DNA of 39,439 bases, from positions 1-39,439 of the IMG/VR virus record IMGVR_UViG_3300037882_001111; one strand, 5' to 3'. Shown piece by piece: positions 12,037-33,296 of this stretch. The translations under genes were made by a program, and so were the position numbers. This DNA comes from a virus. The notes below the pieces were generated by a model. That model ran no database searches. It saw only the letters and a list, made by a program, of their open reading frames with translations, and had not been told where the DNA came from. The first letter of the stretch is position 1. Each line of letters begins with the position of its first letter.

Positions 12037-13116
12037 ATGCCATATGATTTAGACATGGGATTGGCGAAAGTAGCGGATAGAGCTTATGGCAACCTCCTGC
12101 CACGCTCCGCTATCGAGCAGCTACAAGCAGAACGCAATGCACAAGCACAACAGCAGTCGCTAGAAGCTAACCAGCAGATTCAACAAATGCGTCAAGCGGT
12201 GTTGTCTAAAGTTGATGTTAATAATCCTGATTCTCTTAAGTCTGGCGCGGCACAGCTTTATCAGATAGGTGATAATGCGGGTGGTAAAGAGCTTATTGGC
12301 TTATCTATGCAGATTGCTAAGGAAAGCAGATTGCAGGGTAAAGTCAACGCTATGAACAAAGTTTTAGCGGGAGAAGGTGGCGGATTAGGTAACCCTGAAA
12401 CTATTGCTAGGGCTGCTGCTTTGGGTGATGATAAAAGCCTGATGGGTTATGCAACCTTTTTACAAGGGCAAGACAACCGCGCTACAGACGAAGCTAATAA
12501 ATTGGCGGCTGAGGAGCGAGCGCAGACAAGGCAGATTGCAGAAGAAAACCGCCGCAATAAAGCCGAAACTGATAAGGATTTAAAGAAAATCTCTGTTCCT
12601 GACTATGATATTCAGCCAGATATTATACCCTCCGCCAAGGATGCAGAGGCAGTCAAAAAAGCAAATGCCGCCGCGCAAAAACTTATACGGCTCGGTGAAA
12701 CCCTCAAAGGGCTGACCGATAAAAACGGATTCAAATATACAATGGATGTTCCATTCAGCGATAAAAAGCTAGGCGACCCTATAGCAAAACAGATGGATTC
12801 TATCGTTCAGCAAATGAAGCTGGAACAGAAGACTATTGATGATTTGGGTGCTTTAGTGGGTGCAGATTTCAAATTCTTAAACCAATTCCCTGACCCTACA
12901 TCTATGATTGACGCGCAATCTATGGGTGATGTTGGCACATGGAAAACGCAAATAGATGACTTTTTAGGAAGGTCAAAAATGGCAGTAGACGATATTGCTT
13001 CAGCGCGTGGATATATTCCTAAAAAATCCACTAATGACTTTGGTGATGCAAAGCAAGCGCCTGATGGAAACTTTTATGTAGAGCGGAATGGTAAATTCTT
13101 TAGGGTGGAGCAATAA
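12037..13116 (+). CDS. Internal virion (ejection-type) protein 3, coiled coil
   Basis: A 359-residue, mostly helical protein. Residues about 25-60 are Gln-rich (QLQAERNAQAQQQSLEANQQ), and residues about 150-190 are a charged coiled coil. The C-terminal third holds MDSIVQQMKLEQKTIDDLGA and a short closing strand pattern ending FFRVEQ. The start has AAGGGG upstream, and the stop overlaps the next start. Its place between two other ejection-type genes supports an internal virion role. No enzymatic motif is seen. Confidence 0.6.
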   Translation: MPYDLDMGLAKVADRAYGNLLPRSAIEQLQAERNAQAQQQSLEANQQIQQMRQAVLSKVDVNNPDSLKSGAAQLYQIGDNAGGKELIGLSMQIAKESRLQGKVNAMNKVLAGEGGGLGNPETIARAAALGDDKSLMGYATFLQGQDNRATDEANKLAAEERAQTRQIAEENRRNKAETDKDLKKISVPDYDIQPDIIPSAKDAEAVKKANAAAQKLIRLGETLKGLTDKNGFKYTMDVPFSDKKLGDPIAKQMDSIVQQMKLEQKTIDDLGALVGADFKFLNQFPDPTSMIDAQSMGDVGTWKTQIDDFLGRSKMAVDDIASARGYIPKKSTNDFGDAKQAPDGNFYVERNGKFFRVEQ

Positions 13117-15719
13117 TGGCCAAGCTCGTTCCAGTTAAGGGAAATCCTTTTTCACCTAGCAAGAAATCAGCAGCGCCTATGATTAGCCGTGATACTGAGC
13201 TTGAAACCTTCTTAAAAAGTGGGTTCCAAGGCGCTATGGCAGAGTTTGGTGATGAGGCTATGGCTGCTGCCTTAACCCCCTACACTATGGCAAGTGGGTT
13301 AAGCGATAGGGGTATTGTAGATACCTATAAAAACCTTCGTGATGATGCGCGGGAAGTTCAAAAAGCCAGTGAAGCTAAAAATACAAAATCAGCTATTGCT
13401 GGAAAACTTACAGGCGCGGTAACAAGTGGAATATTAGCCGCTCCATTAACCCCAGTTACAAGTTTAAAGGGCGCAATGGCTGTAGGCGGCGGAATGGGTG
13501 GATTGTACGGCTTAGGTGAAAGCGAAGCAAGCTTAACGGAACAGCCCACAGAAGTCCTACAGGATATAGGAGCTGGCGCGGCGATGGGTGGCGGTGGCGG
13601 TGCAGTAGGATATGGTATAGGGAAAGCCGTTACTAGCCCGAACATGCAAGCATTATTACGCGATGAAAGCGGTGCGGTAGGCCGCAAGGTAGGTAATGCC
13701 TTATCGCCAGCACAACGCACAGTATTTCGCGCATTGGTAGAGGAAAAAGGATTTACTCCACAACAGGCGGCAGAATATATCCGTAATGCAGGGCGCGGTA
13801 ATATACCTCTTACACTACCAGAAGCAACAGAAAGCAAAACACTTCTAGGCTATGAAAAACTATTCAGAGGCGGTGCATCTGGCAAGGCCAGTGAGGTTGA
13901 AGGTGTATTTACAGGTAATCGCAAGGGTTTGGTAGGGCAAGCATTTGAGGGTGATGTAGGCAGCATTGTTGCGCCAGTAGTATCACCTGATGTTGCTGGC
14001 AAAGGTATAAAATCAGCCGCGCAATCGGTATTATCCCGCGCTGAATCAAAACGCTCTAATCTTGCAAAGCCATTTTATGAATTGGCTTATAAACAAACTG
14101 TGCCAGATGAAGCGGCTTATTCTCTTTTAGAAAACCCTCTTATCAGTGATGCTTACTCCAAGGTATCAAAAGACCCTGTATGGCAATCTGAATTATCTAG
14201 GCAAGTGAAGGGTTCTCTCGGCGAGTGGGATGTCACAAAGCGTTATCTTGATAATTTATACAATAAAGCAATAACTACTGGTGCAAAGCCAGAGGCTCGA
14301 ATTATTGATGAAGCAAGAAAACAAATAGCTTCAAAGATGGATGAAGTCAGCCCTGCATATAATCAGGCTCGCACAACCTTTGCTAAAGCTAGTCCTAAAG
14401 TCGAAAAACTCCGCAATAGCATTGTAGGGGTACTGGCCGATTTAGGTGATGGAGATGTAGTAAAAGCAGCGGATAAGCTATTTCAGGCATCGCCAGCACA
14501 AATTAAATACACCCGCCGAATGATTCAAACTGCATCACCTCAAGCGTGGGATGATTTGATTGCCTCCTATATCGGACAAGTAGGGGATAAGGCTAATCAC
14601 TCTCCTGCCAAAATCTTGAATGCGCTTTCTAGCCTTGGGGAATCAGGTTCAGTATTGCGAGATAAAAAACTAGTTGCTGCGCTTGGTGAAGATAAAGCCA
14701 AAGCAATTGGCAAGCTGTTTTCTACCATGAAAAAAACCACTCTTGTTAGGGGTGGAAGTGATACCGCATTTAATCTACAATCTCAGGCGGGATTGAACGC
14801 GGATTTAATGTCTCCACTCGAAATGGCTGCATTGCAAGGGCAGGCAGGCGGAATGGATAAGGCGGCGCTTATCCGCCGCTCTGGTGAGTGGGTACGTAAT
14901 CAGATTATGGCAAAACGCTATGAAGAACTGGCTAAAATCTTTGTAGGTGATGGCTCAGAGGAGTTTGCTAAAAAGATAGAAAAACTACCAGCTAATTCGC
15001 TTGAAACATGGCGATTGGTAAATGATAGGATTTCTAAAATAGGTGCAAGTGGTGCTAGGGGCTTTTCACAACCAGTTATAACACAAGACCGCCCTACAGA
15101 AATAACAATCAATCCATCGGCGAAGGGAACGCAGGGAGTGCCTGACGTAAACTTGCCAAAAGGACTTACGCCAGTAGAAGGCAACCCCTTTGAAACCCAA
15201 CTCCCAGCCATAATCCCAGACACCCCCCTTAAAATGACCATTACCCCCCTATCGCAAAGCCTCCAACAAAGTGAAGGCATGGAAACAGTGGCCTATGACG
15301 ACACAGAAGGCAACCGCACAGTAGGTAACGGCTTTAATCTTGATTCTGGCATTGCTCGTAAGGCATGGAAACAAGCTGGCATTCAAGCGGATTTTGACAA
15401 GGTTTATAATGGTGAGCAAGCAATCACACCATACGATGCGGAGTTGCTGCTTAATCAAGGCATGAATGTAGCTGTAGCAGATGCAGATAAACTCTATCCA
15501 CGCATGCAAGCGTTATCTCCTAGCCAGCAAGAGGCACTCACTGAGCTATCCTATAACCTTGGCCTTCCACGGCTATCAAAATTCACTGAGTTTAACAAGG
15601 CTATCAATAGTGGGGATAAAATTAACGCGGTACGTCATTTGATGAAATCTAAATGGGTAACTCAAGTGGGTAAAAACCGCGCTCGAAAAATTGCTAGTAA
15701 ACTTTTAATGGAGACTTAA
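13116..15719 (+). CDS. Large internal virion protein with C-terminal T4-type lysozyme (GH24) domain
   Basis: An 867-residue protein. The long N-terminal region (1-690) is ejection-protein-like, with a Gly/Ala-rich hydrophobic segment around residues 90-160 and coiled-coil parts. The C-terminal domain (about 710-867) is a GH24 muramidase. The catalytic pattern Glu720-x8-Asp729-x5-Thr735 (SEGMETVAYDD...NRTVG) matches Glu11-Asp20-Thr26 of T4 lysozyme, and the end has RLSKFTEFNKAINSGD and KWVTQVGKNRARKI. It probably cuts peptidoglycan during genome entry. The motif PV-[KE]-GNPF occurs twice, near residue 6 and before the lysozyme domain. A fusion of ejection and muralytic functions is inferred. 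Confidence 0.85.
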   Translation: MAKLVPVKGNPFSPSKKSAAPMISRDTELETFLKSGFQGAMAEFGDEAMAAALTPYTMASGLSDRGIVDTYKNLRDDAREVQKASEAKNTKSAIAGKLTGAVTSGILAAPLTPVTSLKGAMAVGGGMGGLYGLGESEASLTEQPTEVLQDIGAGAAMGGGGGAVGYGIGKAVTSPNMQALLRDESGAVGRKVGNALSPAQRTVFRALVEEKGFTPQQAAEYIRNAGRGNIPLTLPEATESKTLLGYEKLFRGGASGKASEVEGVFTGNRKGLVGQAFEGDVGSIVAPVVSPDVAGKGIKSAAQSVLSRAESKRSNLAKPFYELAYKQTVPDEAAYSLLENPLISDAYSKVSKDPVWQSELSRQVKGSLGEWDVTKRYLDNLYNKAITTGAKPEARIIDEARKQIASKMDEVSPAYNQARTTFAKASPKVEKLRNSIVGVLADLGDGDVVKAADKLFQASPAQIKYTRRMIQTASPQAWDDLIASYIGQVGDKANHSPAKILNALSSLGESGSVLRDKKLVAALGEDKAKAIGKLFSTMKKTTLVRGGSDTAFNLQSQAGLNADLMSPLEMAALQGQAGGMDKAALIRRSGEWVRNQIMAKRYEELAKIFVGDGSEEFAKKIEKLPANSLETWRLVNDRISKIGASGARGFSQPVITQDRPTEITINPSAKGTQGVPDVNLPKGLTPVEGNPFETQLPAIIPDTPLKMTITPLSQSLQQSEGMETVAYDDTEGNRTVGNGFNLDSGIARKAWKQAGIQADFDKVYNGEQAITPYDAELLLNQGMNVAVADADKLYPRMQALSPSQQEALTELSYNLGLPRLSKFTEFNKAINSGDKINAVRHLMKSKWVTQVGKNRARKIASKLLMET

Positions 15720-19617: not shown

Positions 19618-19860
19618 TTAGCGCTTTTGTTTCTTTTTGTCAATCCTTGTAAATGGCTTCATTCCTCCTGCTGTGCAAATATATAAAATTTTAGTGTTTA
19701 CAATGTTTGGATATTGCATCCAGCATATCGTGCAGGGTTCGTCCGTGTGATAATGAGGGTCTTTCACTTCCGCTGTTTCATCTGAATATCCACAATGAGC
19801 GCATGGTTTTCCTTTGTGATTTAGAAAATAGTTACATCGTTGGCAAAATATCGTCTTCAT
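19618..19860 (-). CDS. Zinc-ribbon miniprotein, last gene of the leftward unit
   Basis: An 80-residue protein with C-x2-C pairs FCQRCN and CAHCG near the start and a further CTICW later, enough for one or two zinc sites. The C-terminus is basic (RIDKKKQKR). I chose ATG 19860, which has GAGAGG seven bases upstream; an upstream in-frame start would lie inside the previous gene. It overlaps that gene (19832-20002) by 29 bases in another frame, so translation is probably coupled. The function is unknown. Confidence 0.6.
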   Translation of the reverse strand: MKTIFCQRCNYFLNHKGKPCAHCGYSDETAEVKDPHYHTDEPCTICWMQYPNIVNTKILYICTAGGMKPFTRIDKKKQKR

Positions 19861-20002
19861 CCTGCATCCTCTCTCTATATTCAGCCTCATCTTGCGCTAT
19901 TTGCACCATGCTGCGCGTGTCAGCTTCAGGAAAAGCACAGTAAGGGCATAGTGGCACGTCCCACATAGATAAACAGGCATCACAGCGGGTGCAACGACTC
20001 AT
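19832..20002 (-). CDS. 56-residue zinc-finger-like miniprotein
   Basis: A short gene starting MSRCTRCDACLSMW. It has cysteines in C-x2-C-x2-C and CPYC arrangements in the first 22 residues, followed by an acidic helix ending DILPTM. Its ATG overlaps the preceding stop (ATGA), and it overlaps the next gene. The cysteine pairs suggest zinc binding and protein or nucleic-acid contact. No family is recognised. Confidence 0.55.
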   Translation of the reverse strand: MSRCTRCDACLSMWDVPLCPYCAFPEADTRSMVQIAQDEAEYRERMQDEDDILPTM

Positions 20003-20118
20003 GATTTATTTTTTCTTATTAAAACAATTCTACCAGCGTTAAAAACGGCAAAAATCCACAGTGCTACGGTTAGTACAGATAAAAGCCAGTCGGGCATTTG
20101 GTTAATTAGTGTCATCAT
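19999..20118 (-). CDS. 39-residue single-pass membrane protein
   Basis: A small gene with a strong GAGGT ribosome site five bases before ATG 20118 (a second ATG follows directly). Residues about 11-33 are one hydrophobic segment (WLLSVLTVALWIFAVF), followed by a basic tail (RKNKS) that should face the cytoplasm. The stop overlaps the next start (ATGA). The function is unknown; it could be a lysis modulator or an exclusion protein. Confidence 0.55.
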   Translation of the reverse strand: MMTLINQMPDWLLSVLTVALWIFAVFNAGRIVLIRKNKS

Positions 20119-20275
20119 TTCTTACCTCACTTGGTTTATCAGGTAGCATGGCGCAAATTTTGCATTTCCTATCGCTACACAGTCTTTCAAGCCAAATATC
20201 GCAATAGTTGCAATAAAATGCGTCATAAAATTCGCTATATGATTTACGTTTTTTACATTCAGGGCAGCGGTTCAT
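20102..20275 (-). CDS. 57-residue zinc-ribbon miniprotein
   Basis: The product begins MNRCPECKKRKSYSEF and has three C-x2-C pairs: Cys4/Cys7, Cys22/Cys25 and Cys38/Cys41. It has an aromatic, charged spacer and an acidic tail. The first two pairs form a classic zinc ribbon. The gene overlaps the acidic protein upstream by four bases (ATGA) and the membrane protein downstream by 17 bases. GAGGA precedes the start. The function is unknown. Confidence 0.6.
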   Translation of the reverse strand: MNRCPECKKRKSYSEFYDAFYCNYCDIWLERLCSDRKCKICAMLPDKPSEVRNDDTN

Positions 20276-21793: not shown

Positions 21794-21961
21794 TTACCTC
21801 GACTTATAAACAACTGTGTAATTTACATCATTTCCAGAAAAGCCTGTTGTCAGCACTCTATGAACATCCTCAAGCGTGGGTTGTGACGTGTAGGTTTTTC
21901 CATGGCGGTCGGAAGCTTCCCACATCCCATAATTATACTGTAAATAAATAATCCTATCCAT
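21794..21961 (-). CDS. Small hypothetical protein
   Basis: A 55-residue product from ATG 21961 (MDRIIYLQYNYGMWEASDRH), with GAGGAA upstream. An in-frame upstream start at 21991 lacks a ribosome site and would lie within the preceding gene. The pattern is beta-rich with aromatic residues; it ends VNYTVVYKSR. It overlaps the preceding gene by eight bases. The function is unknown. Confidence 0.5.
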   Translation of the reverse strand: MDRIIYLQYNYGMWEASDRHGKTYTSQPTLEDVHRVLTTGFSGNDVNYTVVYKSR

Positions 21962-22256
21962 TGGTGGGTTCCTCCTCACAAGTGGAGGCAAAGATTTCTG
22001 GCTTGCAGGGATATAGCTCGCCCTTCACGCCCTTGATGATGTAATCGCCTAGCGATGCCTTCATGTTTCCTTCAAGGGTTTTTATTGTGATGTAGGCATC
22101 ATGCAATGTTTTGGTGTTCTTATTCCAAGTCCAAGCACCACAGGCAATTAATCCAAATGGCAGTTTGGTAGTCCCCTCCAGTGCAGCTAGCGCACGTTCT
22201 GGTGTAAACTGCAACGCCTCTATAACTACTGGCTTTTTTCGGTATTTCTGAATCAT
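21954..22256 (-). CDS. Widespread phage protein of the 'GDYIIKGVKGE' type
   Basis: A 100-residue protein. The N-terminus YRKKPVVIEALQFT and the motif LGDYIIKGVKGELYPCKPEI are hallmarks of a small protein found in very many phages and prophages, usually in early or accessory regions. The molecular role of that family is not established. AAGGAG precedes ATG. The Cys near KPEIF and the C-terminal acidic tail are typical. Confidence 0.75.
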   Translation of the reverse strand: MIQKYRKKPVVIEALQFTPERALAALEGTTKLPFGLIACGAWTWNKNTKTLHDAYITIKTLEGNMKASLGDYIIKGVKGELYPCKPEIFASTCEEEPTNG

Positions 22257-22613: not shown

Positions 22614-23585
22614 CTACACCCCCATCGCTTTGCTGATTGCCTGTTTTATAACAAGCTCGCCAAAGGCAATTTCACCACCACGTAGTTCTTCAACAACAAT
22701 TTGTTTTTCGTCATCGGATGGAATTTTCCAGATGCATAAACCCGCAAAGATACGAAGTTTTGAAAAAATAAATTTTCCATGAATGGAAAGGCCTGCTTTG
22801 ATGCCATCGCCTGCTTCGATGCCCCAGCCTGCTTCGATGCCCCAGCCTGCTTCGATGCCATCGCCTGCTTTGATGCCCCAGCCTGCTTTGATGCCCCAGC
22901 CTGCTTTGATGCCATCGCCTGCTTCGATGCCCCTGCCTGCTTTGATGCCACTGCCTGCTTCGATGCCATCGCCTGCTTTGATGCCATCGCCTGCTTCGAT
23001 GCCCCAGCCTGCTTTGATGCCATTGCCTGCTTTGATGCCATCGCCTGCTTTGATGCCCCAGCCTGCTTTGATGCCACTGCCTGCTTCGATGCCATCGCCT
23101 GCTTTGATGCCCCTGCCTGCTTTGATGCCATTGCCTGCTTCGATGCCATTGCCTGCATCGATGCCATTGCCTGCTTCGATGCCCCAGCCTGCTTTGATGC
23201 CATTGCCTGCTTTGATGCCATCGCCTGCTTTGATGCCCCAGCCTGCTTTGATGCCATTGCCTGCTTCGATGCCCCAGCCTGCTTTGATGCCATCGCCTGC
23301 TTCGATGCCCCAGCCTGCTTCGATGCCCCAGCCTGCTTTGATGCCATCGCCTGCTTCGATGCCCCAGCCTGCTTTGATGCCATCGCCTGCTTCGATGCCA
23401 TCGCCTGCTTTGATGCCACTGCCTGCTTTGAATTGAATGTAGAATTTTGCTTTCAGTGATGAGAATTTCACGCAACCAAGGCCTTCTTCTGCCTCAATAG
23501 CCCCATCAAAATTAGACAAATCCACATCGCCAACATACTCATTTTTGTTGTTCAGGTGTTTTTTCGTGATTGTAAAAATGTCCAT
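22614..23585 (-). CDS. Hexapeptide-repeat protein, 36 copies of GI(K/E)AG(D/W/N)
   Basis: A 323-residue protein. Residues 1-51 are a mixed N-terminal domain. Residues 52-267 are 36 consecutive hexads I-[KED]-A-G-[DWNSRL]-G. Residues 268-323 form a C-terminal domain beginning IHGKFIFSKLRIFAGLCIW. The period of six with alternating Gly and a fixed Ile suggests a stacked beta-solenoid or beta-roll, with K/E on one face. Proteins with IEAG/IKAG hexads and a 'RIFAGLC.W' end occur in bacteria and phages, without known function. AAGGAATAG overlaps the ribosome-site region before ATG. An adhesive or structural role is possible but unproven. Confidence 0.75.
   Translation of the reverse strand: MDIFTITKKHLNNKNEYVGDVDLSNFDGAIEAEEGLGCVKFSSLKAKFYIQFKAGSGIKAGDGIEAGDGIKAGWGIEAGDGIKAGWGIEAGWGIEAGDGIKAGWGIEAGNGIKAGWGIKAGDGIKAGNGIKAGWGIEAGNGIDAGNGIEAGNGIKAGRGIKAGDGIEAGSGIKAGWGIKAGDGIKAGNGIKAGWGIEAGDGIKAGDGIEAGSGIKAGRGIEAGDGIKAGWGIKAGWGIKAGDGIEAGWGIEAGWGIEAGDGIKAGLSIHGKFIFSKLRIFAGLCIWKIPSDDEKQIVVEELRGGEIAFGELVIKQAISKAMGV
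22785..23432 (-). repeat. Tandem array of 36 units of 18 bp
   Basis: The coding repeat of the hexapeptide protein is 648 bp in 18-bp units. Units differ mainly at the K/E codon and the D/W/N codon; the third positions also vary, so copies are not freshly identical. Because the unit is a multiple of three and lacks stop triplets, several other frames on both strands stay open across the whole array. Confidence 0.95.
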
Positions 23586-23624
23586 TTTTCTATTCCTTAT
23601 TGGTTAATTCTTCGCTGATTGCTG

Positions 23625-25006: not shown

Positions 25007-25329
25007 CTATGCAATCCCCTAAAATGATTCCATTTATTTAACTGGTCATTATGCTGTACGGCATTGCCATTATATAATGGATTGTAGCCATAACCCGCCA
25101 CACCAAGTGAGGCTGCTATCATATATCCCTGCTTACGCTTATTATTTTCAATCTTTTCCTCACGCGCTGCTATATTATTGCCTATGGCAATATCTAAATG
25201 TTGCTCTAATACAGCAATTCGCGTTTGAAGAGCCTTATTGCATCGAATCTCTACTTTCAAATCGAAGCTATCTTGTTGCAGCCGCTCATATTCTTTTTTA
25301 GAAATAATCTTAAACACGCTGCTCTCCAT
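24997..25329 (-). CDS. Coiled-coil protein
   Basis: A 110-residue protein with a long helix in the first 70 residues: KKEYERLQQDSFDLKVEIRC, then LQTRIAVLEQHLDIAIGNNI. Next comes a basic stretch (KIENNKRKQGYM) and a Gly/Tyr/Asn-rich tail. It overlaps both neighbours. There is no catalytic motif. It is probably an oligomeric accessory protein. Confidence 0.5.
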   Translation of the reverse strand: MESSVFKIISKKEYERLQQDSFDLKVEIRCNKALQTRIAVLEQHLDIAIGNNIAAREEKIENNKRKQGYMIAASLGVAGYGYNPLYNGNAVQHNDQLNKWNHFRGLHRCV

Positions 25330-25678
25330 AAACTGTAGTTTCCATTGAGTAGTTTGGTACAGGCTTTTGCTTCATTGCATTAGCTTCAATTCTCGCAACT
25401 TTAGAGCGAATATGTGCAACTTTAGTAGCAATTCTATTATAAGGCATATTCATAGCCTCTGATATTTCTTTGATGCTATATGGTATGGCCATGTAACGGA
25501 TTACTTGCGCGGTTTCTTCTGCTTTCCACACATATGGAACATGGCTTTTCCCTGCACGCTCTAAACGCCGCCTAACAGTTACCCGCGACATACCAGTTAC
25601 ACGCTCTATTTCTCTATAGGTTTTCCCCTCGTTACGCATAGCTAGTGCCAGCTTTTCTATTTTATCGTTCCACCGCAT
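25310..25678 (-). CDS. Double helix-turn-helix DNA-binding protein
   Basis: A 122-residue basic protein from ATG 25678, whose A overlaps the upstream stop (TAATG), with AAAGGGGG as ribosome site. The first HTH (residues about 5-42) contains AMRNEGKTYREIERVTGMSR followed by VTVRRRLERAG. A second HTH-like unit (about 53-90) contains AIPYSIKEISEAMNMPYNRI. Similar homeodomain-like HTH proteins regulate phage genes or act in DNA transactions. It is a candidate regulator of this leftward region. Confidence 0.65.
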   Translation of the reverse strand: MRWNDKIEKLALAMRNEGKTYREIERVTGMSRVTVRRRLERAGKSHVPYVWKAEETAQVIRYMAIPYSIKEISEAMNMPYNRIATKVAHIRSKVARIEANAMKQKPVPNYSMETTVYGEQRV

Positions 25679-25911
25679 TATTTCCCCCTTTGTACATCTA
25701 TGCGAAAATTCATCTCTTGTTGCTCCTCGTACCAGTCTTTTTCGCAATCCATGCACCTAAATGTTTCATCTCTGTACTCAAGAGTGTAAACATTGCAGCC
25801 GCGACACTGCACTACATCATCAGGATTGTAAGCAACACCGTCAATGTAAGCAATTTCATAACCATACTCTAAAAACTCACCAAGCTGCTGTGCGTCCATA
25901 GGCTGAGTCAT
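25678..25911 (-). CDS. Acidic zinc-ribbon protein
   Basis: A 77-residue protein. Its N-terminal half is acidic and aromatic. The motif CRGC...CMDC with 14 residues between the pairs forms a zinc ribbon, followed by KDWYEEQQEM. It overlaps the membrane protein upstream (ATGA) and the HTH gene downstream (TAATG). The function is unknown; a regulatory or protein-binding role is likely. Confidence 0.6.
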   Translation of the reverse strand: MTQPMDAQQLGEFLEYGYEIAYIDGVAYNPDDVVQCRGCNVYTLEYRDETFRCMDCEKDWYEEQQEMNFRIDVQRGK

Positions 25912-26109: not shown

Positions 26110-26307
26110 ATGCACATTACAGAAATCATAGAAGATATCAGAGAATTTATTAAGCAAGAGGGCGTAACACCTTTTCGGCTGTTTAGGCTTGCAGGCATCA
26201 AACACAAAAACTCGCACTTGATTAACAGTGATTCGTGGAATCCCACGGCTGCAACACTGACAAAGCTTCAGGATGCAATCAGAGCGTATAGGTTAGGGCG
26301 TGAGTAA
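26110..26307 (+). CDS. Small HTH-like regulator of switch 1 (Cro/repressor-type)
   Basis: A 65-residue protein. Helices are predicted at IREFIKQEGV, PFRLFRLAG and AATLTKLQDAIRAY, with NSDSWNPTAATL between. The layout, with a first helix, an 'AGI..' turn and a Trp-Asn-Pro-Thr segment before the last helix, resembles small phage HTH proteins related to Cro and XRE regulators. It has no ribosome site. The promoter -10 box ends seven bases before ATG. It is divergent from unit 2 across a palindromic operator. It overlaps the nuclease gene by eight bases, so the two form one short transcript. Confidence 0.6.
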   Translation: MHITEIIEDIREFIKQEGVTPFRLFRLAGIKHKNSHLINSDSWNPTAATLTKLQDAIRAYRLGRE

Positions 26308-26701
26308 GTCACTATCACCCGAAAACCAATTGTCATCTGACTTAAAAACAGCACTTACACGATTAAAAAGTAATGGAGTTTTAGATGCTGTATTTTTTCA
26401 TGTACCAAATGAGTTTAAGCCTACTAAAAACTTTTTTGCAGCTTGGAAAATCAAGGAAGCCATAGGGTGTGTTTCTGGCGCTCCTGATTGGGTTATTACA
26501 TGGCAAGGAGGCACTCTATTAGTAGAGCTTAAAGCCAAAAAAACACTTGCATCAGCCTTAAAAGCAATGCGTGACGGCCAGCGTGATTTTGCTTTAGATT
26601 GCGAAAAAAGCGGCGTTAAATATGAAGTGCATATTTCAGTAAGTGATGTCATCCGCTCCCTCCAAAGGCATGGGGCGTTCACCAAAAATCTTGCCCTTTA
26701 G
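26300..26701 (+). CDS. VRR-NUC domain nuclease
   Basis: A 133-residue protein from GTG 26300, overlapping the regulator gene. VRR-NUC motifs are visible: HVPNE with Glu38, SGAPDWVI with Asp63, and VELKAKK with Glu76 and Lys78 (the E-x-K of the PD-(D/E)xK fold), then a later MRDGQRDF. Such nucleases act on branched DNA, often as a Holliday-junction-resolvase-like activity, and accompany SF2 helicases in phages. Here the helicase is convergent, and the last 66 bases overlap its 3' end. Domain identification is confident; the substrate is inferred. Confidence 0.85.
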   Translation: MSKSLSPENQLSSDLKTALTRLKSNGVLDAVFFHVPNEFKPTKNFFAAWKIKEAIGCVSGAPDWVITWQGGTLLVELKAKKTLASALKAMRDGQRDFALDCEKSGVKYEVHISVSDVIRSLQRHGAFTKNLAL

Positions 26702-28360
26702 TTCCCAAAATTTACCAAACTTTTTAACAATAATCTTTTCTGGTCTTTTATAGGGCAATGCGTTTTCATGATGAAAAAATAACGCATCATCAATGCTTTG
26801 CGGATACATTCCTTTATGTTCTGGCATATGACGGTCATGCCATTCCTTCATTTTGAACATGGCAACCCATTCATAGATATTGCTTGCATAAGTATTATAA
26901 ACCACTTTTAGAATAGGTTTTGCTGACGGTTCACCATCTTTTGTTTTTTTAACGTGTTTTGATAGCGTCCAGTCAATTACTGTCAGTGTTTCTGGCTCAA
27001 TATCCGCCGTCAGCAATGCGCTTTTTTTATCCGCGCTTTCCGATAATGTCACTACATCCGCAATCAATTGGAATCCGCAAGGAATACAATACTTAGCACT
27101 CATTGCGTTAGGCTCGGCGCAAGCGGGGCATATCCGCGCTTGTTCTTTCTTTTCATCTTTTGGCTTTGGTTCAAAATCAGATTGCCGCTTGGTGACTTTA
27201 ATGTCGTCAATACAGCCTAGTGCGTCAATCACACCGCCAAAATCTAACACCATGCAATCAGCTTTACCACTGGCAGTAATAGCTGCAAGCCGCTGCTCTT
27301 TGGTATCTTGCGGCATTCCAGCGGCATATACTGGCCTAATGCCTCGCCCGATACATTGCACATAAAGCACTGGCGAACGAGTGGGGCGCATAAATGCAAG
27401 CAAGTCAATTTCTGGCACGTTAAAGCCAGTGGTAAGCATTGCCACGTTAACAAGGCACTGAATATCACCATTACGAAACGCTAATACAGCCGCTTTGTTA
27501 TCCGCTGCACTTTTTTTGCTATGAATGCCTTGGCATTTTACACCATGCCTCTGAATTTCTGCCGTAACGTGTTCGCAATGATCAGTTCCTGCTGTAAATA
27601 TAAGCCAGCGTTTTCTGTCTTGCCCATGTTCAATAATTTCTTTTACGCAAGCTTCGGTCACGTCTTGCTTATCAATAGCCGCCTGCAACTGGCTTTCTAT
27701 ATAATCACCGTTGCGAGTTTTTACGCCGCTAGTGTCCATAATAGTAGTGGTTTTTGGCACTGTAGGCTTTACAAGAAAACCCTCCTCTATCATCCATGCA
27801 ATCGGAATCTCATAAGCTACGCTTTCAAACAACGCGCCCTTACCCTCGCATAAATGGCCTGAATCGCTGCGGTAAGGAGTACCAGTTAAACCAATGACGC
27901 GCATTTTAGGATTTAACGCCTCGCAATCTGTTATAAACTTGCGATAACGTGTTTCATCGTTGTGTGGTATAGTATGGCATTCATCTACTATGATAATGTT
28001 AGGGCGGCGCGTTTCATCAAGCAGCATCGCTTTGTCATGAATGCTTTGAATGCTGGCAAATGTAATATCATTAGTTAATTTTTTTTGATTAAGCCCTGAA
28101 CAGTAAAAACCATAATTAGCTTCAGGATATTGAGCGCGTAACTCCTCAGAATTTTGCACTAGCAACTCTTTATCATGAGCTAAAATAATAATTCTAGTGC
28201 GGCTGTATTTTTCCTGCACTTGACGGATAAACTCCGCCATAATTAAAGACTTTCCCGCCCCTACAGGCGCAACAATCAGCGGATAACCTTGTGCATTATA
28301 AATATGATGCCAAATTGCTTTGATTGCCGCTTCTTGGTATTTTCTTAATTGTTTTGGCAT
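26636..28360 (-). CDS. SF2 DEAD/DEAH-type DNA helicase with zinc ribbon
   Basis: From ATG 28360, 574 residues; a GTG at 28396 would add 12. Helicase motifs follow in order: Q-like front RKYQEAAI, Walker A APVGAGKS (Lys37), motif Ia ILAHDKEL, motif II DECH (126-129), motif III GLTGTP, motif IV WLIFTAGT, motif V TTGFNVPEIDL and motif VI QCIGRGIR. A zinc ribbon (CPAC at 411-414, then CIPC) follows, then a roughly 150-residue C-terminal domain. This is the phage DEAD/Res-type helicase used in replication or recombination. The 3' end overlaps the opposing nuclease gene by 66 bases. Confidence 0.9.
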   Translation of the reverse strand: MPKQLRKYQEAAIKAIWHHIYNAQGYPLIVAPVGAGKSLIMAEFIRQVQEKYSRTRIIILAHDKELLVQNSEELRAQYPEANYGFYCSGLNQKKLTNDITFASIQSIHDKAMLLDETRRPNIIIVDECHTIPHNDETRYRKFITDCEALNPKMRVIGLTGTPYRSDSGHLCEGKGALFESVAYEIPIAWMIEEGFLVKPTVPKTTTIMDTSGVKTRNGDYIESQLQAAIDKQDVTEACVKEIIEHGQDRKRWLIFTAGTDHCEHVTAEIQRHGVKCQGIHSKKSAADNKAAVLAFRNGDIQCLVNVAMLTTGFNVPEIDLLAFMRPTRSPVLYVQCIGRGIRPVYAAGMPQDTKEQRLAAITASGKADCMVLDFGGVIDALGCIDDIKVTKRQSDFEPKPKDEKKEQARICPACAEPNAMSAKYCIPCGFQLIADVVTLSESADKKSALLTADIEPETLTVIDWTLSKHVKKTKDGEPSAKPILKVVYNTYASNIYEWVAMFKMKEWHDRHMPEHKGMYPQSIDDALFFHHENALPYKRPEKIIVKKFGKFWELKGKIFGERPMPLEGADDITY

Positions 28361-28450
28361 GGTTTCCGTTGTTATTGTAGTGTTGTGCGGGGTCACTAAA
28401 CGAGAAGGAGGTTAAAAAACCAAAATCTAGCCCCCGCTGCCAGTGTTACA

Positions 28451-28467
28451 AAGCCACTTGCTGGCTT
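28451..28467. other. Hairpin in the gap between exonuclease and helicase genes
   Basis: The 116 bases between the helicase start and the exonuclease stop contain AAGCCA/TGGCTT around a CTTGC loop. No T-run follows in the leftward direction, so it is a poor terminator. It may be an mRNA processing or pausing site. No promoter is evident nearby. Confidence 0.35.
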
Positions 28468-28476
28468 GGCTTTAAC

Positions 28477-29142
28477 CTATTTCTTAAATGTCATCCGTTT
28501 ATAAACTGCGCGGGTTTTTCTCACGTCATCCGCACAATAAGCGCGTATTTTAGTTTCCTCACCTTCCGCCCATGCCTTGTAAACATCTTTACCGCTAAAA
28601 TCGCCCTTACCTTCAATGCCTAAAGCGCGGCAAAGTTTATCAAGCCCAATGAGGTTTTTAGCATCCCAGCGCAACATGGTATCGTAAATCTTATCGCCCC
28701 ATTTATCTTCATTCTGACGCATAATAACAGGCGGCGGATTAACCCCTAAAATAATGCCACGATGACGGATTAACTTCATGTCAAACTGCGCGGCATTGTG
28801 GCCAATAAACTGGTGAGCATAATCGCCTAGCGCGTGAATATGCTTGTAAAATGCAATTAACATAGATTTTTCATCACCATGTTTTGTAGCATAAAACGTC
28901 ACAGGCTCGTCATCATCCACTTGCACGCCAATACAAATAATATGGCACATTGCACCGTCAAATGACGTTTTAGCCAGTGCGTGTTGCACTGCATTAGCGT
29001 GTTCTGATTCATACCACTTAGCTAAAGTTTCAGGCTTGCTCATAGTAGCTGGCGGCTTAACGTCCGCTGCCACATACTCATATACCCATCCTTCTTGCGA
29101 AGGAATTGTTTCGATGTCTATTGTGATTTCTCTTGCGGTCAT
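28477..29142 (-). CDS. 3'-5' exonuclease (DnaQ-like, PolB exonuclease type)
   Basis: A 221-residue protein from ATG 29142, eight bases after GGAGG; earlier in-frame ATGs lie too close to or before that site. Exonuclease motifs: Exo I TIDIETIP (Asp9, Glu11), Exo II FIGHNAAQFD (Asn116, Asp121) and Exo III YCADD (Tyr202, Asp206, Y-x3-D). This is the stand-alone proofreading-type exonuclease seen in many phages without their own polymerase. It would trim 3' ends for recombination or assist host polymerase. It lies between helicase and SSB-like genes. Confidence 0.85.
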   Translation of the reverse strand: MTAREITIDIETIPSQEGWVYEYVAADVKPPATMSKPETLAKWYESEHANAVQHALAKTSFDGAMCHIICIGVQVDDDEPVTFYATKHGDEKSMLIAFYKHIHALGDYAHQFIGHNAAQFDMKLIRHRGIILGVNPPPVIMRQNEDKWGDKIYDTMLRWDAKNLIGLDKLCRALGIEGKGDFSGKDVYKAWAEGEETKIRAYCADDVRKTRAVYKRMTFKK

Positions 29143-29156
29143 GTTCATATCCTCCA

Positions 29157-29828
29157 TTACCATGGTATTTCATCATCAACCAACGGCATAGCTGCTGCTG
29201 GTGGCGGTGCGTAAGTTACTGGTGCGGCAATTGGTGCTACTACTGCTACAGGCGCTTGTAGCTGCGCTGGTGCAACTGGTGCGCCAACGGCAGCAACTAG
29301 CTTCGCAGAATCAATGCGAGCAAACTTCTTGCCCTTTTTGGCAACCTCTGAGCGGTCAGGATAATGCTGCTCATTGCCTTGCTCATCTAATTTCGCAACC
29401 TTATTTCCAATATCGTCAATTTCCTCGATCACTTCACCTTTGCGAATTTCGTGGTTAACCAAAAGCAGCTTGCCGTTAAGTAAATCTGAGTTCGCAACAT
29501 ACGAATCAAATCCAGCCCCAACGCATAACGCCACAAAGTTTTGAGCGGCAAGCTTACTGCGCGGCGCTGATTTACCACCACCAAAATCAACAACGGAATC
29601 ATCCCACAAATCAAATTCAATTGTATTTTCTGCGCCTTTATATTCACCGTCTGCAACGGCGTAATGTACTTTTAGCACTTCAGGTTTTACATTTTCAGCC
29701 GTGGCAAAGCGAGACACTGCTTTTTCACTGCTAACAATCTGGCATTTTACAAGGCCTGAGCCGCAATAGAAAATCTGGCTTTTCGGCGCAAGTTCTTCCT
29801 CTGTGTATTTTATATTAATGGCAACCAT
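29157..29828 (-). CDS. SSB-like protein (DUF669-type)
   Basis: A 223-residue protein. The N-terminal two thirds is beta-rich and mixed. The last 55 residues are Ala/Pro/Val-rich and flexible and end in acidic DDEIPW. That tip closely resembles the C-terminal DDDIPF of bacterial single-strand binding proteins, which recruits partner proteins. DUF669-type phage proteins have this layout and sit next to Sak4 ATPases, as here. It likely coats single-stranded DNA and recruits the neighbouring recombination proteins. GGAG precedes ATG. Confidence 0.75.
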   Translation of the reverse strand: MVAINIKYTEEELAPKSQIFYCGSGLVKCQIVSSEKAVSRFATAENVKPEVLKVHYAVADGEYKGAENTIEFDLWDDSVVDFGGGKSAPRSKLAAQNFVALCVGAGFDSYVANSDLLNGKLLLVNHEIRKGEVIEEIDDIGNKVAKLDEQGNEQHYPDRSEVAKKGKKFARIDSAKLVAAVGAPVAPAQLQAPVAVVAPIAAPVTYAPPPAAAMPLVDDEIPW

Positions 29829-29829
29829 G

Positions 29830-30510
29830 TTATTTTACTCCGTTAAGTTTGTTAAATAAATAAGTTAAGTTTGGACGCTCAAAATCATCACAATGATTAA
29901 AGCGGCATCGTGCAAAAATTTCAGGCGTTTCACGGCATTGTAACGAGTATTTTGCTCCTTTTTCTGGCAAGTCGTGCATTCCTAAATGCCAAACCCCATC
30001 AAATAAGTGACGCAATTTTATATTTATCTCATTACCGTCAAAAAATGGCTTATGCTGCGGTTCTTTATCATTAAGTTGCGCCAACATAATCACATTTTTA
30101 TCAGGCATTGAGTAAACTTTGTTCATTAATTTAAGTACCCGCTTCGCCATGTCACCATAGGCAGCTTGACCGTTTATTTTTGCGCCTGATGCACTAGTTT
30201 TGCTTAATTCGTCTTGCAATACTAACGCGGCAAAATGACTCGCAGAATCAAAATAAAGTGTGTCAAACTTTTTTGCTTCCGCAGATTCATCTAGCCATTT
30301 CATCACAGCATAAAACTCTGGCAAGGAATGCGCTGCAACCGCTGGTACGTCAGTACCCTGCAAACTCACCTGCCCTTGCTCAATAGCAATATAAAGTGGA
30401 TTAGGCGCAGTTGTAACTAGCGGCGTTTTACCACAACCAGCTGCTCCGTATATAATAGCTTTAATGCCACTATGCCGCGCAAGCTCGCCTGTTGTTGTCA
30501 CGTTAACCAT
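29830..30510 (-). CDS. Sak4-like RecA-family ATPase (single-strand annealing)
   Basis: A 226-residue protein from ATG 30510, preceded by GAGGG. Walker A is YGAAGCGKT (22-29), and Walker B is TLYFDSAS (Asp88). A later QLNDKEPQHKPFFDG strand and the ending FNKLNG fit the phage AAA/RAD51-like Sak4 group. These proteins anneal single-stranded DNA together with an SSB-like partner encoded beside them. The gene overlaps the RHH gene upstream by eight bases and lies one base before the SSB-like gene. Confidence 0.8.
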   Translation of the reverse strand: MVNVTTTGELARHSGIKAIIYGAAGCGKTPLVTTAPNPLYIAIEQGQVSLQGTDVPAVAAHSLPEFYAVMKWLDESAEAKKFDTLYFDSASHFAALVLQDELSKTSASGAKINGQAAYGDMAKRVLKLMNKVYSMPDKNVIMLAQLNDKEPQHKPFFDGNEINIKLRHLFDGVWHLGMHDLPEKGAKYSLQCRETPEIFARCRFNHCDDFERPNLTYLFNKLNGVK

Positions 30511-30667
30511 TGCCGCCCTCTTGTAAATCGGGGCGGCCAATTAACAGGCGGCGAACTTGTGCAGCCCGCGTGCGATCACCAATCTTTGCTTGCTCATCAA
30601 TCTTTTTAATTAAATCGCTAGGCAACTTAATTGTAATAGCTTTTTCTTTTTTTGTTTCTGTTGTCAT
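30503..30667 (-). CDS. Ribbon-helix-helix DNA-binding protein
   Basis: A 54-residue protein from ATG 30667, preceded by AAAGGA. After a basic start, AITIKLPSDLIKKIDEQA is a typical RHH strand plus first helix, and DRTRAAQVRRLL is the second helix. CopG/Arc-type dimers of this kind bind operators. It could autoregulate the replication operon. It is coupled to the Sak4 gene by overlap. Confidence 0.75.
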   Translation of the reverse strand: MTTETKKEKAITIKLPSDLIKKIDEQAKIGDRTRAAQVRRLLIGRPDLQEGGNG

Positions 30668-30712
30668 TGTTTTGTATCCTTTCATATAATTATAAATAGC
30701 AAGTTTAGAAAA

Positions 30713-33034
30713 TTAGTCAATAGCAAAAAAGTATTTTTTTGGTTGTCCTCTTCCAGTGGGTGCGCGAGAGGCTTCGGCCATTAATCCGCCTTCTATAAGC
30801 TCGTGCATCACTTCCTTAAAATCACGAGGGCGAAGTGTACTAAACGGTTTTATCTTCTTCATATCGCGCTGGTCTATTCCTTCTCCGCCTTTTTTGCGAA
30901 TAGCCTCCAAGCAATCAAGCTTCCACTTCTCAAACTCACTACCAGCCACATTGCGGCGTATCTTATTAAGCGTAGCAAGTGAGGTATAGCGCATAATCTG
31001 CACACCTTCCTCAACTGATTGCGCCGTGATTGTAGTAGCATTCGGATTGCGACTTAATTCGATAATCAGCGACAAGCGTAAAGCCATTTCAGCACACCGC
31101 ACAAAAAGAGAATCTAATCCTAGTTTTCCCCATTCATTATTGATGCCGTCTACAATCTCACAATCATAAGCCTTATAAATATCAATTGCGTCATGTTCAA
31201 AGGCCAGCGTTACAAGCTTTGGTTCTTCGTCTGCACTTTCCACTTGATCACCTATTCGTGCATTGATTGCTTCAATCCATTTTAAAATTGATTCTGGCAC
31301 GTCATGAAATCCTACATCCCGCGCATATTGCATCGGCTTATCACTCCACCACATAATATGGCGGCTAATAAATCCGTCTGTAATCATCTTTTGATTCATA
31401 ACCTCTAAAACGGCATGGGTGGTGCTACCTAACATAGTAATAGCAGGATTTTTAACCTGCCTATTAAGCTCGTCTACCATGTCTTTTTTAAGGCCACGAG
31501 TGCTGTAATTATTTGGCCGTTGCGTTCCATCAAGCTTAGTGGCTGCCTCCAACAATTCACCTTTAATTTGAAGCTTGTTTGCATCTACATTTTTGCCACT
31601 AAATCCCTCAAGAAAAATACCCCACTCATTCGGCATTACAATATGGCGCGGTCTTTCCAGCAATTTACTAAATACCCCTGAGCCGCTAGTATAGCCCTTA
31701 CCCTGTATTAAATGGCCAAGGTTTGCTTTGCTTAAAATAGCGGTAATAACGCGGTCGCTTGTTTCTTTGCCTGTCCCCGCGCCTGATACTGTCACTTGAT
31801 AGAGCGAAGTGCGATTGCGTTTATCGGTTGAAAAGTTACGCGCCAGCACCACACTGCAAAACGACAAAGCACAAGGCACAGCAAGCAACTCATTATTTCT
31901 AACGTCATTCAATCGATAAAAATTGATAACCTCCCGCAATACGCCATCAAACTCAGGCAATGCACCAAGTTCCTCATCTTTCCTTTTATAAATTTCATAT
32001 TTACGGTTTAACTGCCGCGCTACTTCCTCTAATCCCGCGCTGCAATGTAAATCATTCCAATCAGTAAATTTCTGACCTGCTTCAAATTCAGGGAATCTAG
32101 CAATAATACTTAGTGCGTGTGCTACTTCTTGTGCTTTTGTACGGCCTGTATTGGTTTTTCCATGTGTATCATCATCAGCAGCAATTACCACTTGGCTATC
32201 AGGATGAGCTTTCACTACATAGCTTGCCACTTCGTAAAGGTTGCCAGCATTAAACGCCACATAAACGGTTGCACCTGTAGCCATGTGAACGCTCGCCCCT
32301 GTGGCGTAACCCTCCACAATATACACTCGCTCCACAGTGCCAGCTATTTGAAACCAGCAACCTTTAACCTTCCCACCCTTTTTATACGGCTTAAATCCAT
32401 CAGGTTGGATAAATTGCAAGCTTGCCATTGTGCCAGTATAAACAACTTCACCGCCGCCAGTACCATTAGGTATTACCGTTTGCACCGCCTCCACCATAGG
32501 GATAACAAGCCTGTCCTGAATTTGCTTAATTGCCCCCACTGGCTTAATTTGCTTTCTTACAAGATACGGATGCAACAAATTGGCGTTTTCCGCTTTCTCA
32601 TACATTCCCCAGCACTCAATCGCCGTTTCAGCATGAACTCGCTTCTCTTCTTCATCGCGCTGCTTTCGCATTTCTTCACGGCGCAACTGTAAATCTAATC
32701 GCTGATCTTTTGTAAGGTACTCAGCGCGACGGCTTGACCATGTTACCTTTTCGCCGTCCTTCCAGTTACCATACGCCCCCACGCCAATCATAAAACCATC
32801 GTTTGAGCTGTCCTCAATTTCATCAAACCAACACCAGCCTGATTTGCCTTTGGCTTTATCGTCAGGGGCAGAAATTCGGATAATTTTGTTGCTCATAAGC
32901 TGCCTAGGCAATCCATAACCAGCCTTAGAAAGCTCCTCTAAAAACTCGCCAGCAGGATCTCCGCTGGGTTGTTTTGAACGGTATTCAGTTACCGCATCAT
33001 CAATCTTTTTCTTCAAATCTGATATATCAACCAT
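30713..33034 (-). CDS. Toprim primase fused to P-loop helicase-like domain
   Basis: From ATG 33034, 773 residues, with AAGGGAG upstream. The N-terminal region (1-230) has Trp-rich strands and a charged helix. The Toprim domain (about 235-320) has YIVEGYATG with Glu241 and VVIAADDDT with Asp287-289. The C-terminal half carries the P-loop SGAGTGKE with Lys423 and a hexameric-helicase-like region, ending with a winged-helix-like domain (LRPRDFKEVMHELIEGGLM). It probably primes and unwinds phage DNA. No zinc finger is visible at the front. It is the first gene of leftward unit 1. Confidence 0.85.
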   Translation of the reverse strand: MVDISDLKKKIDDAVTEYRSKQPSGDPAGEFLEELSKAGYGLPRQLMSNKIIRISAPDDKAKGKSGWCWFDEIEDSSNDGFMIGVGAYGNWKDGEKVTWSSRRAEYLTKDQRLDLQLRREEMRKQRDEEEKRVHAETAIECWGMYEKAENANLLHPYLVRKQIKPVGAIKQIQDRLVIPMVEAVQTVIPNGTGGGEVVYTGTMASLQFIQPDGFKPYKKGGKVKGCWFQIAGTVERVYIVEGYATGASVHMATGATVYVAFNAGNLYEVASYVVKAHPDSQVVIAADDDTHGKTNTGRTKAQEVAHALSIIARFPEFEAGQKFTDWNDLHCSAGLEEVARQLNRKYEIYKRKDEELGALPEFDGVLREVINFYRLNDVRNNELLAVPCALSFCSVVLARNFSTDKRNRTSLYQVTVSGAGTGKETSDRVITAILSKANLGHLIQGKGYTSGSGVFSKLLERPRHIVMPNEWGIFLEGFSGKNVDANKLQIKGELLEAATKLDGTQRPNNYSTRGLKKDMVDELNRQVKNPAITMLGSTTHAVLEVMNQKMITDGFISRHIMWWSDKPMQYARDVGFHDVPESILKWIEAINARIGDQVESADEEPKLVTLAFEHDAIDIYKAYDCEIVDGINNEWGKLGLDSLFVRCAEMALRLSLIIELSRNPNATTITAQSVEEGVQIMRYTSLATLNKIRRNVAGSEFEKWKLDCLEAIRKKGGEGIDQRDMKKIKPFSTLRPRDFKEVMHELIEGGLMAEASRAPTGRGQPKKYFFAID

Positions 33035-33296
33035 ATTAAAATCTCCCTTTCGAATAAAATAATACTTTTTCAATTTCTAATTATTTTTATATTTAGATGC
33101 AAGGTAATTCGTAAATTATAAAAACTCGTTTCAAAACATAAAAAGGAATAAGATTAAAAAATGAAAAGTAAAAAAAAAGTTATAGGCTAGTGCTGGAGCG
33201 GCTTAGAGTAATAAATAATATATATATATATCTATTATATATTATGTGTTTTATACTTACTTTGCCTTCTCTACCCCCCTCTAGGAGGGTATAAAC

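Follow-up and report, generated by a model that had tools for sequence, protein, structure and literature searches.

Results

Organization of the locus

The window, that is the whole stretch of DNA analysed here, is the 39.4-kb virus record IMGVR_UViG_3300037882_001111 (39,439 nucleotides) of a podovirus-like phage, whose plus strand encodes a P22-like portal, a terminase, a capsid and a lysozyme-bearing virion protein. Our study concerns a gene of the minus strand, for which the initial annotation had given no strand, encoding a long run of hexapeptides (hereafter hexads). The features of the locus, with the evidence used to delimit them, are as follows.

22614..23585, minus strand: hexad protein gene (predicted solenoid), 323 aa, ATG start (ORF list, homologues in 172 viral stretches, AlphaFold2 model)
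23593..23598, minus strand: AAGGAA ribosome-binding-like site, 7 nt upstream of the ATG (upstream sequence)
23433..23585, minus strand: N-terminal cap, residues 1-51 (MDIFTITKKHLNNKNEYVGDVDLSNFDGAIEAEEGLGCVKFSSLKAKFYIQ) (family alignments, pLDDT)
22785..23432, minus strand: 36 hexads of 18 bp, residues 52-267 (unit table, Tandem Repeats Finder)
22617..22784, minus strand: C-terminal cap, residues 268-323 (IHGKFIFSKLRIFAGLCIWKIPSDDEKQIVVEELRGGEIAFGELV...) (alignment A3, pLDDT)
26636..33073, minus strand: replication module, upstream of the hexad gene and co-directional with it (PHROGs matches, Pfam)

The replication module comprises a DNA helicase, a DnaQ-like exonuclease, a 223-aa ORF with no PHROG match, a Sak4-like annealing protein and a primase. 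Since these genes lie upstream on the same strand as the hexad gene, and the virion genes are on the plus strand, the earlier description of the locus as a phage early region is fair. Promoter and terminator scans gave background levels.

Several other genes of the window deserve mention. A 100-aa protein (21954-22256, minus strand) belongs to phrog_419, a phage family without known function (E=2.7e-30), and contains IIKGVKGELYPCKPEIF, while a 148-aa protein (25310-25756, minus strand) with a sigma-70 region 4-like helix-turn-helix (PF08281, E=2.3e-9) is a possible early regulator. Near the end of the run of minus-strand genes lie two small ORFs (19832-20002 and 20102-20275, minus strand) that are rich in Cys and whose CxxC pairs give them a zinc-ribbon-like look. 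A 133-aa ORF on the plus strand (26300-26701) is found among the minus-strand genes and overlaps the end of the helicase gene; it has no Pfam match and looks nuclease-like by eye. In the virion region, an 867-aa protein (13116-15719, plus strand) carries a C-terminal phage lysozyme domain (PF00959, E=5e-10).

The hexad array and its caps

Residues 52-267 form, as first described, an unbroken run of 36 hexads, all exactly in phase: units 2-35 (34 units) are perfect copies of I-[KED]-A-G-x-G, and the two end units, FKAGSG (first) and IKAGLS (last), are degenerate. The variation originally reported at position 5 (D, W, N, S, R) and at position 2 (K, E, D) holds over the 36 hexads, with counts of D12, W12, N6, S3, R2 and L1 at the former and K21, E14 and D1 at the latter. 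End units aside, the array varies only at codon 2 (AAA, GAA or GAT) and codon 5 (GAT, TGG, AAT, AGT or AGG). The six-residue, 18-bp period is strict; Tandem Repeats Finder independently placed an 18-bp array at 22791-23431 (35.6 copies, score 792) and also returned a 54-bp, three-unit period (score 890).

The N-terminal cap contains the conserved motif FxGxIEIExxLGxVxF (family alignments A1 and A4), and the C-terminal cap the family motif LRIFAGLCxWRxPxxEE..GxVxxG (alignment A3). The existence of relatives, many with the same caps, and the ribosome-binding-like site before the ATG establish the hexad ORF as a genuine gene, not an open frame that arose by chance. The repeat also casts frame-shadows, seen as long ORFs that overlap the gene in the other frames. 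The charges of the repeat nearly cancel (23 K/R against 27 D/E), for which reason DNA mimicry was not retained as an explanation.

An unannotated family in phages and prokaryotic assemblies

Relatives, many of them sharing both caps, are encoded by 172 IMG/VR stretches and by 48 stretches in bacterial and archaeal assemblies from many phyla; several of the latter loci have a phage- or prophage-like appearance. The architectures are of two main kinds, which have in common the hexads and the C-terminal 'FAGL' motif: the first, that of the window protein, starts with the FxGxIEIExxLGxVxF cap, and the second with an N-terminal 'GAC..G...F...FPxGxEYQ.VLD'. From the phage contigs and the bacterial and archaeal assemblies together we compiled 149 independent arrays, with lengths from 7 to 39 units (median 17); one short relative, L080, has 12 units. 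Four loci with relatives (L086, L093, L095 and L123) come from genomes of isolates. K and E are close to parity at position 2 (1075:1162), and W is present in 140 of the 149 arrays; in the first set of arrays it makes up about a third of the units (median).

The repeat class was thought to be without known function, and our searches agree. No Pfam family matched the window protein at E<=10, and no Pfam domain was consistent across 43 relatives. PHROGs returned a weak match to phrog_32669, a family without known function (E=0.014 for the window protein, 7.8e-4 for the relative L002), which may be compositional, since the repetitive part alone of this 1054-position profile was aligned. Among annotated phage records there were three tblastn matches, each a 'hypothetical protein', and no description of the repeat itself came up in the literature searched. 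Sequence matches in the PDB to 9e5c (a LIM protein) and 5vj4 (Borrelia BTA121) were rejected as compositional EA/EAG repeats, and tblastn matches to plasmids were of low identity and probably compositional.

Genes near the relatives encode helicases, anti-repressors, regulators, exonucleases, DNA methyltransferases and integrases, a neighbourhood of host-directed and regulatory accessory phage genes. In locus L004, the gene next to the hexad gene (L004:4196-5131) has its own repeat, 'SVGASVWASV...', and relatives of it occur in five hexad loci.

Silent sites are frozen within arrays and arrays are rebuilt between phages

In the window, the 36 units reduce to 11 distinct 18-mers, and every difference between these replaces an amino acid, with zero synonymous changes. 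Ala is always GCA (36/36), the two Gly codons are GGC in 36/36 and 35/36 units, and Ile is ATC in 35/36. These codons are not the dominant ones of the phage, in which ATC accounts for 15-21% of Ile and GCA for 31% of Ala, and the probability of such uniformity arising from codon usage alone is about 1e-90. The initial annotation had observed that the units differ in DNA, which is correct, and had read this as evidence against a recent expansion, which does not follow: all the differences are non-synonymous and the array is homogenised.

The same regime is seen across the 149 arrays. Silent differences between units of one array have a median of 0 and a mean of 0.034, and 97 of the 149 arrays have none at all, whereas units taken from different arrays differ silently at 0.485 of comparable codons. 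Heterozygosity by base is 0.44/0.03/0.03 at codon 2, where change is almost only A/G at the first base, and 0.45/0.52/0.18 at codon 5; elsewhere it is about 0.06 or less, with about 0.03-0.05 at the third positions of the other codons. Selection or targeted change is thus confined to codons 2 and 5, and we consider selection for diversity at these two positions probable. Where silent variants are present they track the unit type (L005, L015, L045), and units are therefore copied whole. Repeated three-unit blocks are in excess in 23 of 91 arrays.

Comparison of copy number between related phages, which the initial annotation had proposed, revealed differences in three pairs, and units were not all identical, so that growth by identical units only is not what is seen. 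L018 and L074, with flanks at least 99.9% identical over 6 kb and 3.4 kb, have 23 and 13 units, a 10-unit block being absent from the latter. L011 and L017 have identical flanks (6 kb on each side) and 34 and 29 units. Short-read assembly collapse may contribute to the length differences in these two pairs. It does not explain the third, L067 and L089, whose adjoining flanks are 96.2% and 98.7% identical and whose arrays, of 17 and 26 units, are wholly different in make-up.

Opposite charges are paired three units apart

The first set of arrays showed position-2 K/E identity below chance between units three apart (z=-2.9). The signal recurred in 78 independent arrays outside that set, where the lag-3 charge product was -0.089 against an expected 0.041 (z=-4.0) and lags 1, 2, 4, 5 and 6 stayed within 1.1 SD, and in the 33 arrays fetched last, taken alone (z=-2.4). 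Over all 149 arrays, position-2 charge is anti-correlated at lag 3 only (z=-4.8). Opposite charges are thus favoured across turns. This accounts for some of the mixing of K and E, and to that extent the diversity at position 2 is structural and does not reflect recognition.

This signal is independent of any structure prediction. With three hexads per turn, the side chains at position 2 would stack between units i and i+3, and the lag-3 pairing fits an 18-residue triangular turn in which K is stacked on E. The same geometry does not bear out the separate charged and variable faces envisaged at first, as three hexads per turn would put a K/E row and an x row on every side.

At position 5 the window alone has a lag-3 excess (p=0.0045), which vanishes across arrays, where W has no three-unit periodicity (z=0.4); a Trp ladder on one face was accordingly rejected. 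Across arrays the order of position-5 residues is close to random, and the order signal is weak.

Predicted fold and handedness

The AlphaFold2 model of the window protein (43-sequence alignment) has a pLDDT of 87.3 and a pTM of 0.74, with one β-strand per hexad. In 10-residue blocks, pLDDT is 96-97 over the first 50 residues and 88-95 in the C-terminal cap, its last ~13 residues excepted. The prediction thus returned an ordered β-solenoid and not disorder, and together with the lag-3 charge signature it supports the regular solenoid expected from the repeat pattern; we regard an array folded with three hexads per turn as highly likely.

Foldseek found no significant match in the PDB for the full window model, and its best viral matches were uncharacterised phage proteins. 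Compared with left-handed hexapeptide helices using a DALI-like aligner, the window model reached Z scores of up to 25.4 with an rmsd of 11-12 Å throughout. Aligners of this kind compare internal distances, and a mirror image can score high yet superpose badly. The combination of high Z and large rmsd therefore points, indirectly, to a right-handed triangular helix in the predicted structure, and the superpositions of a relative's model given below favour the MinC_C/bactofilin class.

The AlphaFold2 model of the relative L050 is confident at both ends, with a poorly predicted hexad region (mean pLDDT 68). Its C-terminal part superimposed on right-handed helices, namely MinC 4v02 (Z 8.6, 4.0 Å over 88 residues), bactofilin 6rib (Z 7.6, 2.5 Å over 76) and MinC 6riq (Z 7.0, 2.9 Å over 77), and bactofilin and MinC were its top two Foldseek matches, at insignificant E-values. 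The 'RIFAGLC..P..EE' cap is reminiscent of the end of MinC. Profile-profile comparison (hhalign) with 10 MinC_C sequences gave probabilities of at most 3.1%. Given these values and the Foldseek E-values, membership of the MinC family was dropped and a fold analogy alone retained; since Z is modest and no MinC_C sequence homology was found, the likeness in the models would be a shared fold class at most.

Discussion

The hexad family can be set against several known repeat proteins. Bactofilin (PF04519), the MinC C-terminal domain (PF03775) and the FapA solenoid (PF03961) are, like the predicted hexad fold, glycine-rich short-strand solenoids, from which the hexad family differs by its 7-39 near-identical hexads and their fast turnover. 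The window protein matches none of the three profiles at E<=10, and one relative in 43 (L077) matches FapA at E=3.3e-6, below the family cut-off. The left-handed β-helix hexapeptide proteins (LpxA, GlmU, YdcK) share the six-residue unit and the three units per 18-residue turn. They have a small residue where position i+4 of the hexads is W/E/D/S/N/R, and the 11-12 Å superposition suggests the opposite hand; there is no Pfam match to Hexapep (PF00132), and position 5 of the window array (one L, otherwise D, W, N, S or R) departs from the [LIV]-[GAED]-x-x-[STAV]-x pattern. The period of six residues also separates the family from the five-residue pentapeptide repeats of the Qnr/MfpA type.

Frozen silent sites next to hypervariable exposed codons usually mark a pressure to keep changing what is bound. 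Such a regime is known from the fungal NLR repeats of HET-E and HET-D, whose units evolve in concert and are polymorphic in number, with positive selection on surface residues diversifying a binding surface (PMC4986451). The hexads resemble them in concerted evolution, in repeat-number polymorphism and in variation at few positions, the exposure of which we infer from the predicted fold. The fungal repeats are WD, ANK or TPR units on an NTPase receptor, whereas the hexad protein would be a six-residue solenoid; no Pfam domain, and hence no NOD/NTPase domain, was found in the window protein or consistently in the 43 relatives. Amino acid identity among the window hexads is about 77%, against a threshold of 85% for the fungal repeats (PMC4986451). 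Near-identical repeats, each with two variable residues, are also found in TAL effectors (PMC4522561); this is an analogy only, as those repeats are helical DNA-binding units of 33-35 aa and the hexads are predicted strands of 6 aa.

The fold class and the evolutionary regime, the latter from fungal receptors, are therefore already known. A phage family combining a six-residue unit, two variable residues and such freezing of silent sites did not turn up in Pfam, PHROGs or the literature searched. Our work thus describes a large unannotated phage protein family with an extreme mode of repeat evolution, in which silent sites are frozen and arrays are rebuilt between near-identical phages.

We tentatively favour the view that concerted evolution, together with selection that favours varied residues at two exposed sites, produces a quickly changing recognition surface. 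The protein would be a capped β-solenoid built of triangular turns, each of three hexads, so that 36 hexads give about 12 turns. Ile and Ala would face the interior and Gly would occupy the corners; the residues at position 2 (K or E) and at position 5 (W, D, N, S or R) would be exposed, forming rows on all sides of the triangle. Whole 18-bp units would be duplicated and deleted in blocks as the array evolves. This concerted evolution would wipe out silent variation, and selection would maintain both the diversity of positions 2 and 5 and the pairing of K with E from turn to turn. Probably expressed early, the protein could use this reshufflable surface to bind a variable target of the host or of a rival phage, in counter-defence or host takeover. 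We favour this reading because the regime is that of the fungal NLR repeats and because the relatives lie among accessory genes. A specific recognition role is, taken by itself, a little more doubtful. Against it, composition is fairly conserved (W in 140 of 149 arrays, K:E about 1:1) and order mostly random, features that a bulk surface would fit equally. If recognition is confirmed, the family points to a host or rival-phage target and to a new modular binding scaffold.

The main rival to a recognition surface is a bulk role, in which the protein would be a rigid rod or filament, bactofilin-like and perhaps self-associating, for which a W-containing, charge-balanced surface suffices. The order of units would then be neutral, and the mixing of K/E and x would just prevent like-charge rows, register slip and aggregation. 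The balance of K and E, the near-universal W, the lag-3 K/E pairing, the weak order signal at position 5, the free array length (7 to 39 units) and the resemblance of the C-terminal half of the L050 model to bactofilin and MinC filament subunits all agree with it. It does not explain the wholesale change of non-W position-5 residues between the near-identical phages L067 and L089, nor the early, variable-gene location, and single-residue mixing would not require such rapid turnover. We judge it rather unlikely, though it would be of interest in its own right as an unusual charge-registered solenoid designed by natural selection.

A stronger form of the recognition hypothesis, which seems improbable to us, treats the units as two-residue modules (K/E plus W/E/S/D/L...) that recombination reassorts, with their order setting what is bound. 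If true, this combinatorial surface would be the phage analogue of TAL-effector or variable-receptor repeats, deployed against rival phages or the defences of the host. As the units are modular and only six residues long, the roles of unit order and of composition can be directly tested.

Under neutral slippage, a low-complexity, expandable array would simply be tolerated, and the variety at positions 2 and 5 would reflect nothing more than the readiness of exposed sites to accept change; this reading is already disfavoured, and we consider it improbable. Block deletions and duplications between repeats are indeed visible, as is the excess of repeated three-unit blocks in 23 of 91 arrays. Tolerated sites would, however, be expected to vary no more than silent sites, and heterozygosity at codons 2 and 5 reaches 0.44-0.52 against about 0.03-0.05; neutral homogenisation would also have erased the variety of K/E and x, and lag-3 charge pairing would not be expected.

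It is very improbable that the array acts as a nucleic acid, as a DNA or RNA code with an incidental protein. The DNA is near-constant apart from set positions, which recalls the phage VIPR RNAs, with their constant GGY and variable NN (PMC13142463). These vrRNAs are defined by five-nucleotide YNNGG tandem repeats (PMC13142463), whereas the hexad array has an in-frame period of 18 nt, codon 2 changes almost only between A and G at one base, silent codons differ freely between phages (0.485), the protein caps are conserved and confidently folded in prediction, and the charge pairing acts on the encoded residues. The least credible explanation, a diversity-generating retroelement or similar targeted mutagenesis, would suit the focus of variation on two codons in nearly every array, but adenine-specific randomisation should also strike the second and third bases of AAA, where heterozygosity is about 0.03 (against 0.44 at the first), silent variants that track unit type point to whole-unit copying, and inspection by eye of the ORFs listed for the window revealed no reverse transcriptase.

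Two further relatives are of note. One, in a Nitrosopumilaceae (archaeal) assembly (L126:5575-6378), combines a Cys-rich region (CPHCG...CTLCKG) and a few hexads with a helical-looking C-terminal region. In the other, from Pigmentiphaga humi (L103:5557-6726), the repeats have drifted apart (IRAGTAIVAGADIETGG...), which is possibly how an array looks once it is no longer homogenised.
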